A DNA stretch of 41,859 bases. Origin: Polyangiaceae bacterium. Lineage in GTDB: Bacteria > Myxococcota_A > Polyangia > Polyangiales > Polyangiaceae. This document shows positions 5,606-41,859 of the stretch, piece after piece. Positions within the stretch are counted from its first letter, which is position 1, and each line of letters starts with the position of its first letter. Under the pieces are notes generated by a model. That model was not told where the DNA came from and searched no databases. It saw only the letters and a program-made list of their open reading frames with translations. A program made the translations under genes and the position numbers. The DNA lies in the NCBI GenBank assembly GCA_025353725.1, contig JANXOF010000017.1, positions 1-41,859 of the forward strand, in the 5' to 3' direction.

Positions 5606-7771
5606 ATGTCCGTGGTTGAAGCGATGAATCGAGAGATTGAAAAGCGCTCAGGCTCACCGTCACTGTCACTACCTTCGCCGTGGCCACCTCTCGAGGCGCG
5701 CGAGGGCGAAGACTTATTGGCGTTCGCACTTACCGCCGAGGCGCTCCCCTTTGGATTTGCTTACCTCCGAAGCCTCCGTGACGCACAAGGCGCCGTGGTC
5801 GACCTCGAGGTTGCGCTGCAAAACGCGGCGGCGGCGGCGCTGAGCCTCTGGCGCGACGAACCTCAATGGTCGCGCTTTATCGAAGTCGCAGAAACCGGAA
5901 CGACTTGGCGAAACGAGGTCGAGTCGACGGCGCAGAACGGCGATTGCGTCCTGCGGATGAGTGCCGTGCGTGTCGGTCGTGGCGTCGCCGTCACCTTCGA
6001 GGACGTGACAGCGCATCGGGAAAGCGCAGCGGAGAGGGCAAGCTTCGTGGCCGAGCAGCGGCTTGCGCAGAAAGAGGCGTGCGTAGCGAAGGAGAAGGTC
6101 GACATCGTCTTTCAGCAGCTGCGCGCGTCGGAGGAGCGCTTCCGGGTCGTCCAAGAGAGCTCACCCGATGGCTTTATGATGTTCCGCAGCGTGCGTGACG
6201 CAGACGGAGCCATTCGAGACTTCGAGTGGATTTACACGAATCTCGCCGCGAATCGAATTGTCGGAAAGTCGAATGCCGAACTGGCGGGCAAAAGCTTACT
6301 TACGGAGATGCCTGGAAATAAGGAAGAAGGTCTCTTCGATGCGTACGTGCGCGTTGTTGAAACCGGAGAGCCTTTTCGGCGCGAGTTCTCCTACGCCCAC
6401 GAGGGCTTCAATCACGCATTTCGCGTCCTCGCCCTGCGCCTCGACGACGGATTTGCGGTCACTTTCGAGGACGTGACCGAGAGAATGCGGCAGGAGAGTG
6501 AGCGCGCAGAACTCCTTGCCGGAGTCGAGGCCGCGCGCGCAGAAGCCGAGCGCCAGCGTGAGCAGGCCGAGGCCGCAAGCCATCTCAAAGACGAGTTTTT
6601 AGCGACCGTCTCGCACGAGCTTCGCACACCGCTCCAGGCCGTTCTGGGATGGGCGCTGCTCCTCCGCGACGACCCCGGACTCGACCCCGATCGCTTGGCT
6701 AAGGGCATCCACGTCATCGAACGAAACGCGCGAGCCCAAGCGCGCATTATTGAAGATATTTTAGACGTTTCCCGAATCATCACGGGCAAACTTCGACTCA
6801 CGCCCCTCAGCCTCAACGTGGCTACCGTCGTCGAGGCCGCGGCGGACACCTTGCGCGCGGCGGCAGACGCAAAGCGCATTACGTTGACTGTCGAGGTCGG
6901 GCCGGAAGTGGGAAAGGTCGTAGGCGACCCCGACCGACTTCAACAGGTCGTATGGAACCTCGTCTCGAATGCTGTAAAGTTCACCAGTGACGGCGGTTGC
7001 GTTGCGGTCAAGGTGCAACGATTTGCAACTTCGGTATCGCTCGTTGTTTCAGATACGGGAAAAGGTATCACCGCCGCGTTTCTTCCGCACGTCTTCGAGC
7101 GCTTTCGCCAAGCTGACGGGTCAACGACGCGGCCTCAAGGCGGACTCGGACTCGGACTCGCCATTGTTCGACACCTTGTCGAACTGCACGGCGGACGCGT
7201 ATTTGTCCGAAGTGATGGGGAGGGTTCGGGAGCGACCTTCGAGGTGTCCCTTCCGGTGCGTGCGAGCGTTGCGCACATCGAGCCAATGCTTCAAAAAACG
7301 CCACAGAGCGGCTTCCTCGACGCCGGGCCTGAGCTAGGTTCGATCCGTGAAAAGCGCGTACTCATCGTCGATGACGAGGAGGATGCCCGAGAGCTTATTG
7401 CGGCCTTACTTCAGAGGGCAGGAGTTCATGTAAAACCGGTAGCATCAGCCGAAGAAGCCATGGCGGCGCTGGCCTCTTTCCAACCCGACCTCTTGGTCTC
7501 CGACATCGGAATGCCCGAAGAAGACGGATATTCGCTACTGCGCCGCATCCGTGCGCTTGCCAGTGATAATCCCTCTCGGGGCATTCCAGCGATAGCGCTG
7601 ACGGCTTATGCACGAGCCGAGGATCGTCGTCGCGCTCTGCTCGCAGGCTTTGGCGTTCACATGTCCAAGCCAGTGAATCCAGGACTTCTCATTGACAGCA
7701 TCGCTCGGCTTCTTGGCCCGGACAACCTGTCCTTCGGCGCGTCAGACGGGGTCGCGAGTCAACGCGACTGA
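5606..7771 (+). CDS. PAS-containing hybrid sensor histidine kinase/response regulator
   Basis: A 721-residue soluble hybrid kinase with no membrane segment or signal peptide. Two PAS-like sensor modules occupy roughly residues 40-135 and 175-295; each ends in the same phrase (VTFEDVT). A Glu/Ala-rich coiled coil (about 295-325) leads to HisKA with SHELRTPL (phospho-acceptor His337). The HATPase domain has the N box [10 protein letters not shown]1 DTGKGI and G2 GGLGLGLAI. The C-terminal receiver has IVDDEED, the phospho-acceptor Asp633 in SDIGMP, and SKPV. Complete autophosphorylation and phosphotransfer machinery is therefore present. The ATG at 5606 is used. No output domain or partner regulator is adjacent. 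The paired PAS modules look like an internal duplication. Confidence 0.93.
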
Positions 7772-34819: not shown

Positions 34820-35105
34820 GTAACGAGGCTCTCACGCTGCGTAGACTCGAGAGGATTCCATCCGACGGGTTTCCCGTGAACGGATATCTCCGAGCCGCGA
34901 TGGGGCGAACCGCCGTAAGCAGAGAGGTGCGTTTTTAGGAGAATCAAGGCCCCACGCATAGAACTTGAAGGGAGCGTCACCTCCTCCCTTGCCATCGGAC
35001 GACGCCCGGACGGTTACGTGCGGACCTCGCAGCTCCTCGGTACCCGTGAATGGGCGGCGCTCCGGACCAACCTTTCTGACAAACTTAGAGAAGCCTCGGG
35101 TCGAG

Positions 35106-39193: not shown

Positions 39194-39813
39194 GGGTCGA
39201 ATGCTACAGGCCGAGCACGACAGTGTCGTGAGCGTTTCTTAGGATACGCCGCACGCGACACGTCGCTTGAGGCGTCCTACGTCCAGTAATTCTGGAATCT
39301 CGGCCCGCAACGCCACTCGCGCCGCCTCGCTTGCGAGCCATAGGCTCGCGGACTTGGGCTACGAAAACCTCTTCGTCAAGATATGCGCAATAAGTGTTAG
39401 CGCCAGCAACCCGCTCGCCGTGAGTTCTTTCAGCAAGGCGGCCGTCATAAACTGAGGCTGCTCGCCATCGGCGGCACTTTGTAAGTGACGCGCGCCATCG
39501 AGATACGACCCGGACGTCCCGACGATGCCGAAGCTTGTAGCTTTCCTCCAATCCAACGCGCGAGGCGACGCCGAGAGCCTGCTCTTCAATCACGCTACGC
39601 TCCTCGAGCGTGTCTTTCTCAGCAAGCTTGCGTCGAGCTGCGCGCAACCTGCCATAGACCGCTTTTTCTCGCTCCCCCCATCGCTTGTGACTTCCGGCGT
39701 GCCGGCCGCGGCGGCGCCATGCGCATTGGCGAGTTGATGTAGCTTCGCTATCGTCTCCGCGAACTCGGATTCGCTTGCGAAATGGCGGTACTCGCCGGAA
39801 TGTGTTTTCCCGT
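39194..39813. other. region without a convincing gene, possible decayed coding sequence
   Basis: About 620 bp. On the minus strand, protein-like segments occur in different frames: FAETIAKLHQLANAHGAAAAGTPEV (near 39710-39780), REKAVYGRLRAARRKLAEKDTLEERSVIEEQALGVA (near 39560-39670) and a C-terminal hydrophobic helix LLKELTASGLLALTLIAHILTKRF (39362-39440). The frame changes near a run of six C (plus strand, about 39676). This could be a gene broken by compensating frameshifts, but no family is recognised and it may be chance. Confidence 0.25.
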
Positions 39814-40683
39814 ATGACCGCGAAAACCTCCGAAACGAAGCACGGCCTGCGCGCAAGGCCCGCTGCCACCACGGCGTCCGGCGGCCACCGTGCAAGGCGG
39901 ACCACCTTCGACGGCGGGGACGCGCGTTTCACCGAGGTCGTCGCGCTCATTGAGGCAGCGCGGGGACGGGCATACCAAGCCGTGAACGCCGAGCTCATCG
40001 CGCACTACTGGGAACTCGGCGAGTACGTCAGCCGAAAGATCGCGAGCGCCGAGTGGGGCGACGGTGTCGTCGAAGAACTCGCCGCCGATCTCACGAGGCG
40101 CTACCCGAGTGTCCGAGGCTACACGCGCCCGAACCTCTTTCGAATGCGCCAGTTTTACGAGGCATACCGCTCGAACCGAAAAGTCTCACCATTGGTTAGA
40201 CTTTTGCCGTGGACGCACCACCTCATCATCCTCAGCCAAGCGAAGCCTGTCGAGACGCGCGCGTTCTATATTCTCGCCGCCATCAAAGAGCGCTGGCCCA
40301 AACGAGCGCTCGAGCGGCAGATCCGTTCGGGGGCCGTGCTTCGCGAGGCGCAGGCCACGAAGAATGTCTCACCAGCGGTGAGACAAACTCACCCGACCGC
40401 CATTGATGAGTTCAAGAACGCCTACAACGTCGAGTTCCTGGGCCTCGCGGCCGAACATTCCGAGGCCGACCTTCACGGCGCGCTCTTGCGAAACCTCGGC
40501 CGCTTCCTGACCGAACTCGGTCGCGACTTCTGCTTCGTCGGTTCGCAGTACCCCATCCAAGTGGGCAACCAGGACTTCGCTATCGACCTCGTCTTCTTTC
40601 ACCGTGGCCTTCAATGCCTCGTGGCCTTCGAGCTGAAGGTTGACAGGTTCAAGCCTGCCGATCTTGGCCAGCTCTCGTTCTAA
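39814..40683 (+). CDS. YhcG/DUF1016 PDDEXK nuclease, truncated by a stop codon
   Basis: A 289-residue product of the YhcG family. The N-terminal DUF1016 helical domain is clear (FTEVVALIEAARGRAYQAVNAELIAHYWELGEYVSRKI; LFRMRQFYEAY; PWTHHLIILSQAK). The PDDEXK nuclease domain follows with its catalytic residues in DFAIDLVFFHRGLQCLVAFELKVD (Asp and Glu-x-Lys). It ends at LGQLSF with TAA at 40681-40683, where family members continue with Tyr and ~80 more residues. Those residues are present immediately after, in the same frame. The ATG at 39814 is used. Family members are often found in restriction or defence contexts. The product may be unstable without its tail. Confidence 0.88.
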   Translation: MTAKTSETKHGLRARPAATTASGGHRARRTTFDGGDARFTEVVALIEAARGRAYQAVNAELIAHYWELGEYVSRKIASAEWGDGVVEELAADLTRRYPSVRGYTRPNLFRMRQFYEAYRSNRKVSPLVRLLPWTHHLIILSQAKPVETRAFYILAAIKERWPKRALERQIRSGAVLREAQATKNVSPAVRQTHPTAIDEFKNAYNVEFLGLAAEHSEADLHGALLRNLGRFLTELGRDFCFVGSQYPIQVGNQDFAIDLVFFHRGLQCLVAFELKVDRFKPADLGQLSF

Positions 40684-40935
40684 GTCGAGGCGCTCGACCG
40701 CGACGTGAAGAAGTCGCACGAGCGGCCTTCCATCGGCGTGCTGCTATGCGCGACAAAGGATGACGAGGTCGTCGAGTACGCGCTCGCGCGCACGACATCA
40801 CCAACGCTGGTCGCCGAGTACCAGACGTTCCTTCCACCGAAGGAAGTGCTCCGCGCGAAACTCCACGAGCTATACGCGCAGCTCGCGCCGACGGCGGACC
40901 CACCGATAGCCGCAAGAGGAAGTCGTCATGGCTGA
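40684..40935 (+). pseudogene. detached C-terminal part of the YhcG-like nuclease
   Basis: It reads on in the same frame from the stop at 40681: VEALDRDVKKSHERPSIGVLLCATKDDEVVEYALARTTSPTLVAEYQTFLPPKEVLRAKLHELYAQL, the standard end of YhcG proteins, plus a short Pro/Ala/Arg tail. The only defect is TAA in place of a probable Tyr codon (TAC/TAT). A GTG at 40705 could start translation of the fragment. Its stop overlaps the next gene's ATG region by 8 bp. Confidence 0.82.
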
Positions 40936-41692
40936 ACGCACGTGGGGCGCTATCACGAACGGCGCGACCTTCGAGTCCCTCGCCACGACCCTTGTGTACT
41001 TTGAGGACTCGAACGCATCGCTCTTCGGTCGCAGAGGCAAAGACGGCGGACAGGATGCGCGTTCGGGTGACGGGACCCGAGTGTTTCAGGCGAAGCACCA
41101 CGAAAACGGCTCGGCGGCCGCTGCGCTCAGAGACGCCAAGCAGGAAGCCGCGAAGATCGCGAAGTATCGTCAGCCGGACCACGCTCGACATCACCAGTGG
41201 ATGAATGTGACGCACTGGCAGCTCGTAACGAATGCCGCATTCAATGCCACGGACAAACAGAAGTGGGATACGGAGGTCGCACCGCTCTTCGCGCAGCAGG
41301 GACTAACGGCGGACTATTATTGGGAGCGTGAGAACCTGAACGCGCTCCTTGACAAGCACCCCGAGATTCATCGCTCGTTCTTCGAGAACGAGACGCGGGT
41401 CTTTCTTTCACTTCCCGAGGTGAAAGAGCGGCTGCAAATCAACGAGCCATTTCTGCGTCGCGATAGACTTGCGCCTTTCTGTGGACGAAAAAACGAGACG
41501 GCGACGATTCGCGAATTCCTTGCCTCCGACAAGTCCTTCCTCGTCGCTCACGGAGCGGGTGGAACGGGCAAGACGCGCTTGCTCGTCGAGGCCGGCGACG
41601 ATATCGCGAGCGAAGGTGCGTGGCACGTCCTTTGGGCGAACGTCGAGAGCATGGCCGCAACCGGTTCGTGGTTCGAAGCCGTTGTCCCGTAA
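40928..41692 (+). CDS. 5' fragment of a PDDEXK + P-loop NTPase defence gene (Avs-like)
   Basis: A 254-residue fragment. Residues 1-170 look like an Mrr/Cap4-type PDDEXK nuclease: FESLATTLVYFED, GRRGKDGGQDARSGDG (D43) and RVFQAKHH (Q54-x-K56, with the Gln variant of the ExK motif common in Mrr). After CGRKNETATIREFL a P-loop begins with Walker A GAGGTGKT (209-216). The NTPase stops at residue 254, before Walker B and any sensor repeats, so the gene is cut. Nuclease-STAND fusions of this order are known as Avs-type antiphage NTPases. The ATG at 40928 overlaps the YhcG reading frame by 8 bp, implying one operon. The stop codon lies in sequence that seems to belong to an inserted IS. Confidence 0.8.
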   Translation: MAERTWGAITNGATFESLATTLVYFEDSNASLFGRRGKDGGQDARSGDGTRVFQAKHHENGSAAAALRDAKQEAAKIAKYRQPDHARHHQWMNVTHWQLVTNAAFNATDKQKWDTEVAPLFAQQGLTADYYWERENLNALLDKHPEIHRSFFENETRVFLSLPEVKERLQINEPFLRRDRLAPFCGRKNETATIREFLASDKSFLVAHGAGGTGKTRLLVEAGDDIASEGAWHVLWANVESMAATGSWFEAVVP

Positions 41693-41859
41693 CCGTACGG
41701 AATTGGACGCCGTGCGCAATCGGGCGCGGCCTGCTGAAGTGCTCGGATGGGAAGACATCGGGAGGATTGGTGGGCGGAGCGACTCGAAGAGTTGGCGCAG
41801 GGCGGTGACGCCGAGGAGATCGCGCGGCGTCACGGGGTGAGACTCTGGACGCTGCTCGG
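41689..41859 (+). mobile_element. left end of a probable IS66-type element
   Basis: The defence gene's coding sense stops abruptly near 41688, and the sequence from GTAACCGTACGG onward belongs to something else. IS66-family ends commonly begin GTAA. About 60 bp in, a small gene of the IS66 accessory type starts. The right end and the target duplication are outside the window. Confidence 0.45.
41747..41859 (+). CDS. partial IS66-type accessory protein (TnpA/OrfA-like)
   Basis: A 5' fragment of 37 codons running off the window. It reads MGRHREDWWAERLEELAQGG and then DAEEIARRHGVRLWTLL. This is the helix-turn-helix start typical of the small accessory protein encoded first in IS66-type elements (E/D-W-W at the start, xxIARRHGVRxxTL as the recognition part). 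No strong ribosome-binding site is visible. Other transposon-linked HTH proteins are possible alternatives. Confidence 0.5.
   Translation, partial: MGRHREDWWAERLEELAQGGDAEEIARRHGVRLWTLL

Follow-up and report, generated by a model that had tools for sequence, protein, structure and literature searches.

A nuclease-STAND gene of a probable defence family, interrupted by an IS66-type element at a contig end in a Polyangiaceae genome

The truncated gene and its neighbourhood

The window, i.e., the whole stretch of DNA that was analysed, is 41,859 bp and represents the entire contig C8 of a Polyangiaceae assembly (G000), which is 6.62 Mb in 98 contigs with an estimated completeness of 97.55% and a contamination of 3.43%. 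Position 41859 is thus the physical end of the contig. The features found near this end are given in Table 1.

Table 1. Features at the right end of the window
Feature	Positions	Strand	Basis or remark
DUF1016/YhcG-type PD-(D/E)XK nuclease gene, broken by an in-frame stop (40681–40683)	39775–40935	+	Start codon uncertain
Native 5' part of the PD-(D/E)XK-STAND gene, 253 codons and 2 bases	40928–41688	+	Homologues, ORF
Region coding for the nuclease-type motif D43 ... Q54-A-K56	41054–41095	+	10-row alignment
Walker A, GAGGTGKT, residues 209–216	41552–41575	+	Alignment; nSTAND_NTPase5 match
GTTGTCCC, expected left copy of an 8-bp target repeat	41681–41688	+	Three full relatives with 8-bp repeats
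Left end of an IS66-type element, 171 bp, ended by the contig end	41689–41859	+	Repeat, relatives
First ORF of the element (tnpA-like), incomplete	41747–41859	+	Resembles by eye the first ORF of the L062 element

The reading frame at positions 40928–41692 has 254 codons; its native part comprises codons 1–253 plus two bases of codon 254. The TAA stop at 41690–41692 comes from the GTAA terminus of a repeat; the repeat starts exactly at the G of GTAA (position 41689), so the stop codon is supplied by the repeat. The initial annotation had listed this ORF with residues D43 and Q54-A-K56, a Walker A motif, a stop next to a GTAA-type end and the start of an accessory protein. All of these are present as described, and the accessory start represents the ATG of an IS66-like first ORF at 41747. 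The truncated ORF goes beyond chance, since residues 1–253 have 80% identity to P0001, an intact 1333-aa protein from a Myxococcaceae MAG (locus L030) that is the closest named homologue, residues 1–252 have 74% identity to an intact homologue in genome G010, and the 171-bp repeat recurs on contig C12.

The gene directly upstream is of the DUF1016/YhcG type and shares its last 8 bp with the beginning of the STAND gene. It matches the PADLOC model PDC-S02 (best E 7e-96 in the window and 1.8e-127 in L030). A DUF1016/YhcG gene is also directly upstream in L030 and in L031 (the G010 locus), and intact copies exist. YhcG was considered as a fixed component of the system and rejected, as it adjoins the STAND gene in the window, L030 and L031 only among the loci examined; there was no DUF1016/YhcG match in the flanks examined at the other loci. 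In L117 (genome G396) the open frame starts at position 6465, and an HSDR_N/helicase gene (hsdR-type, type I restriction) ends at 6461. Genes with Methylase_S (hsdS-type) and Schlafen-AlbA domains are found upstream of this hsdR-type gene, and the STAND gene and its partner follow it (L117:3423–11296). These neighbours and the DUF1016 gene are taken as a defence context. In G010 a divergent ORF (L031:3045–4838) is upstream of the DUF1016-STAND-partner cluster. It contains the serine-recombinase-like stretch YLRVSTVEQ, and the cluster is possibly a mobile island.

The dN/dS value of the surviving part of the STAND gene is 0.09 between the window and L030 and 0.11–0.14 for three other pairs, and it is undefined for two; that of the DUF1016 gene without its 5' end is 0.08–0.15. 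Synonymous differences are near saturation and these values are rough. The substitution counts fit a recent inactivation.

Intact homologues and their domains

Complete homologues are about 1,280–1,340 aa in length and carry both a Walker B motif and a long C-terminal region, which places the truncation after Walker A and before Walker B (LLLVDE, residues 258–263 of P0001). The suggestions in the initial annotation that a full gene was once present and that an IS66-type end interrupted it are supported. Other homologues are 1317 aa in G010 and 1277 aa in G134 (L033). Genomes G487, G396, G429, G282 and G305 have open frames of 1267–1392 codons, that of G305 being cut at a 5' contig edge; L116, L117 (G396), L118 and L119 count among the full-length homologues. 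In G036 the two halves of the gene are on two contigs. At E ≤ 1e-20, 11 of the 377 genomes of the phylum match, G000 included. The 253-aa fragment gave 15 matches at E ≤ 0.001 when compared with 193 relatives: G000, G010, G036 and G134 match over nearly the whole length, G002 matches over 70 residues, and ten matches cover the P-loop region only.

Broken copies are frequent: the gene is a remnant or broken in four of the 14 loci seen, i.e., the window, G198, G002 and the Nostoc azollae plasmid pAzo01. The other ten loci are L030, G010, G036, G134, G487, G396, G429, G282, G305 and G354; three of these (G036, G305 and G354) run into contig ends and were left out of the broken count. In G198, a one-contig genome, only the last ~150 codons are left (C1:2199096–2199530; L121:7091–7561) and no partner was detected alongside. 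G002 has a piece of ~70 residues and a second, weak piece (E 0.16). On pAzo01 the STAND gene is in several pieces that span the start of the record (L105:7688–9212 and L106:2–2805). The gene family is present in at least two bacterial phyla. No homologue was found in the IMG/VR viral collection with P0001 or with A2, and A3 gave one NTPase-only match; phage collections showed no homologue. Plasmid collections contained the broken Nostoc azollae copy and a weak Rhizobium match, the latter with the distant homologue L119 as query.

Residues D43, Q54 and K56 are nearly invariant in the 10-row alignment, in which row L112 starts after the motif at a contig edge. A two-sequence AlphaFold model of residues 1–177 displays the topology strand-strand-helix-strand-helix-strand, with block pLDDT values of 66–92 across positions 51–130, about 51 across 41–50 and low values elsewhere. 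The model has a strand at 41–45 (block pLDDT 51), a strand at 51–58 (66) and a helix at 63–80 (85–92). This is the PD-(D/E)XK arrangement, D ... (D/E/Q)xK on neighbouring strands followed by a helix, with a mean pLDDT of ~51 for the strand that carries D43. A Foldseek search with the model gave no match at E ≤ 0.001. In VIA-align the first row is Avs4 (8dgf, Z 7.0, 4.1 Å across 86 residues), followed by EcoT38I, a CdiA-CT toxin and Card1, all with Z < 8. Rows 5–10 are RNA polymerase E subunits, whose N-domain is classed among the restriction-endonuclease-like folds. Lower rows include BstEII, Avs3 (8dgc, Z 5.4), Cap4, Bse634I, EcoO109I and FokI amid unrelated STAS and carboxylase domains; the Z values of the Avs4, EcoT38I, Card1, BstEII, Avs3 and Cap4 rows run from 7.0 to 5.2. 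From the motif and these rows, the N-domain is read as a PD-(D/E)XK nuclease domain.

The central region matches nSTAND_NTPase5 in all ten A3 members and AAA_16 in nine of ten (E ≤ 0.1), with Pfam scores under the curated cut-offs in all four members for which scores are shown. Intact homologues have the two motifs of a STAND NTPase, GAGG(T/I)GKTR (Walker A) and LLLVDE (Walker B) or close variants of these, and the window copy retains Walker A alone. The proposed fusion of a nuclease-like N-domain to a STAND-type NTPase is supported. In the G134 homologue (L033:6992–10822) Walker A has degenerated to GVGSSR, without its lysine, and a partner gene was not detected there; NTPase and partner may have been lost together. 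Pfam listed no match on the C-terminal region of P0001 or of the L031 and L033 homologues, and searches of solved structures gave nothing convincing.

The homologues bear on the reading in which the truncated 253-aa nuclease and P-loop fragment is a working short protein. Its frame is open, its motifs are intact and its dN/dS is low, but it is without Walker B and the entire C-terminal region, and its stop is supplied by the IS. None of the aligned homologues is of such a length or stops close to residue 254, and a low dN/dS is equally expected from recent inactivation. A functional short protein is considered highly improbable; the fragment is presumably the remains of a dead copy.

The IS66-type end and the missing remainder of the gene

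The repeat at 41689 begins GTAACCGTACGG. A copy that is identical over the 171 bp except for one mismatch is at the end of contig C12, with the same GTAA start and a different left flank; both copies of this left end in G000 are at contig ends. Since the window stops at the physical end of contig C8, the body and right end of the element are unreadable there. Full relatives of the element are 2301 bp (G007), 2307 bp (G002) and 2302 bp (G030). Each has GTAA or GTAT ... TTAC termini and a perfect flanking repeat of 8 bp. In G003, G132 and four G000 loci there was no matching right end within the stretch examined. ORFs were scanned in one of the three full relatives, the G007 element (L062), which has 80% identity to the window element across the 171 bp and encodes TnpB_IS66 (E 1.6e-32) and DDE_Tnp_IS66 (E 5.5e-63) proteins. 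The 37-aa piece of the first ORF in the window has no Pfam match. The GTAA terminus in the window, together with the 8-bp target repeats and TnpB/TnpC ORFs of the related full elements, points to the IS66 family, and the unseen body would be of this type; compared with full elements of the family, the window copy ends at 171 bp. A search for repeats around the 41689 junction found nothing of note. A 12-mer at positions 35006–35017 of the window, CCGGACGGTTAC, resembles an IS66-type end; it may be a chance resemblance, and no element was recognised around it.

The position of the boundary is relevant to the reading that the organism has an intact gene and that the junction arose in assembly. 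The assembly is rich in repeats and its contig end is only 171 bp from the junction, but the boundary falls exactly on the GTAA terminus, as it does in C12 and in the complete elements of other genomes. In addition, the adjoining DUF1016 gene is broken too, and there is no intact copy of the gene elsewhere in G000. An artefact is regarded as very unlikely.

The initial annotation expected the remainder of the gene beyond the IS. Residues 254–1333 of P0001 have no match in G000 at E ≤ 10, and the full-length protein recovers just two pieces there, the N-terminal one and a P-loop match of 59 residues on C70 (E 0.02). As positive controls, full-length P0001 finds the C-terminal parts in G010, G036 and G134. 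The partner protein described below gives a chance-level match alone in G000 (E 0.85), and the partner family model gives none. The right junction with an 8-bp target repeat, also anticipated, was searched for and is absent from the G000 assembly: there is no TTAC end followed by GTTGTCCC, and an exact search with TTACGTTGTCCC found no site. Several candidates were rejected. With one mismatch allowed, GGTTACGTTGTCCC has one site, on C1, which reads GGTGAC and is without the TTAC end. Right ends of one related type on C54, C15 and C4 precede GTAGCTCA, GGCTCCGC and GTTCCACT, respectively, and those on C2 and C95 precede GGCGATCT and GTTCCGAT; none of these is GTTGTCCC. The right end on C95 belongs to another IS66-type pair, with its left end on C53, which retains its shared 8-bp repeat GTTCCGAT. 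On C4 (L103:4942–7000) an IS66-type right end gives way after ~310 bp to other sequence, which might reflect insertion of a second element within or next to it.

Two histories may account for the missing tail. The tail and partner may still be present past a complete IS, on sequence that is missing from the assembly. Contig C8 ends inside the repeat, the completeness is 97.55% and the conserved fragment suggests recent inactivation; a tail of ~3.2 kb and a partner of 0.8 kb are nevertheless large to miss by chance, and no convincing fragment of either was found in G000. This history is given close to an even chance. In the other, the IS inserted first, and a later deletion mediated by it, or a rearrangement involving IS copies, took away tail and partner and left no matching 8-bp repeat. 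The absence of tail, partner and TTAC-GTTGTCCC junction together at this level of completeness argues for a deletion, as do the related right ends on C4, C15 and C54, none of which precedes GTTGTCCC. However, the assembly is in 98 contigs and both left-end copies are at contig ends, which makes a missing contig equally possible, and the C53/C95 pair in the same assembly has kept its 8-bp repeat. A deletion is a serious possibility at somewhat less than even odds. With no right junction, tail or partner in G000, insertion with deletion and an assembly gap are indistinguishable.

The RNxxxH partner and comparison with known systems

Directly downstream of the STAND gene there is a gene for a ~270-aa protein (about 260–320 aa) in nine of the 12 loci that hold the C-terminus of the STAND gene (L030, L031, L112, L116, L117, L119, L120, L122 and Nostoc L105/L106). 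In L030 and L031 the partner start overlaps the end of the STAND gene. No partner was found by tblastn in L033, L118 and L121, and L033 and L118 have no RNxxxH on the strand of the gene within 2 kb downstream. All eight aligned copies contain an RNxxxH motif with its R, N and H unchanged. The Nostoc partner is decayed yet keeps the motif as RNYFVH, with no feature listed under the partner match. The partner model matches seven of the 377 genomes of the phylum, in each case beside the STAND gene; all seven are rows of the model, so what carries information is the absence of matches in the other genomes.

RNxxxH (Rx4-6H) is the signature of HEPN RNases, and the eight copies and the Nostoc copy conform to this motif definition. 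The partner resembles HEPN RNases in its invariant motif and in being predicted as mostly helical, the latter at low confidence in a single-sequence model (pLDDT 45.6) that was too poor for a structure search. It differs from them in that none of the eight members matches a Pfam HEPN family, and no convincing relative was found among solved structures. From its sequence the partner is a putative HEPN-type protein and may be an RNA-cutting enzyme.

PADLOC and NCBIfam libraries hold Avs models. The designation Avs-like in the initial annotation holds for the architecture and not for a named type: there is no Avs name among the PADLOC and NCBIfam matches, in searches run without an Avs positive control, and sequence searches of solved structures brought up no Avs chain at E ≤ 10. 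The N-domain, at residues about 11–152, weakly matches two PADLOC models, the candidate PDC-S73 (best E 6.4e-7; 4 of 10 A3 members at E ≤ 0.1) and Aga_TIR-PNTD1-PNTD2, which is associated with short Argonautes (best E 3.6e-6; 5 of 10), with the remainder of either model unmatched. Avs proteins have a tripartite plan (PMC12931631). With Avs3 and Avs4, which carry nuclease effectors, this family would share a PD-(D/E)XK-type N-domain, followed by a STAND-type NTPase in the centre and an extended C-terminal region. Unlike Avs, this family has the conserved ~270-aa RNxxxH partner. Judged by architecture, it resembles an Avs-type nuclease-STAND sensor that is accompanied by a putative HEPN protein.

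Combinations of these domains have precedents. A system with two STAND proteins, in which the inactive STAND module carries a fused GT4 or HEPN effector, is described in PMC8195603, and HEPN-fused DUF499 (STAND/ORC-type) ATPases with helicase-REase partners are described in PMC12839542. These provide precedents for STAND with HEPN and for REase with HEPN in one system. In those descriptions the HEPN domain is fused to the ATPase, which sets them apart from a REase-STAND protein with a separate RNxxxH partner. No description of a REase-STAND protein with a separate HEPN partner was found in the mostly open-access literature, which is weak evidence of absence.

The favoured reading, with a probability of roughly 0.78, is that the right end of the window holds a defence-gene copy that is now dead, interrupted by an IS66-type element, and that the intact family represents a sensor with a HEPN-type partner. 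The intact protein would be a three-part sensor, with a PD-(D/E)XK nuclease at the N-terminus, a STAND NTPase in the middle and ~900 C-terminal residues that are taken as the sensing part. By analogy with Avs, the STAND protein probably senses viruses: an invader molecule would bind to the C-terminal region, and binding would lead to NTP-dependent assembly that switches on the nuclease. The HEPN-like partner may add or control RNA cleavage. In the window, the IS66-type element interrupts the gene after codon 253, leaving only the nuclease and P-loop.

It is tentatively suggested, at less than even odds, that the homologues form a two-gene immune module consisting of a PD-(D/E)XK-STAND sensor and a dedicated HEPN RNase, in which a single recognition event could set off cleavage of DNA as well as RNA. 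This proposal is rated lower because of the published STAND-HEPN combinations as precedents. Taken alone, the truncated gene is a commonplace victim of an IS. It leads to a consistent family of nuclease-STAND proteins, and what is new is that an RNxxxH partner is usual beside their gene. The window also illustrates how such a system is lost: a stop breaks one of two neighbouring nuclease genes and a transposon the other, and both still look constrained in sequence. If both nucleases of the intact module work, it would represent a prokaryotic NLR-like sensor with two kinds of effector, directed at DNA and at RNA, respectively. As there are intact copies, the module is directly testable.
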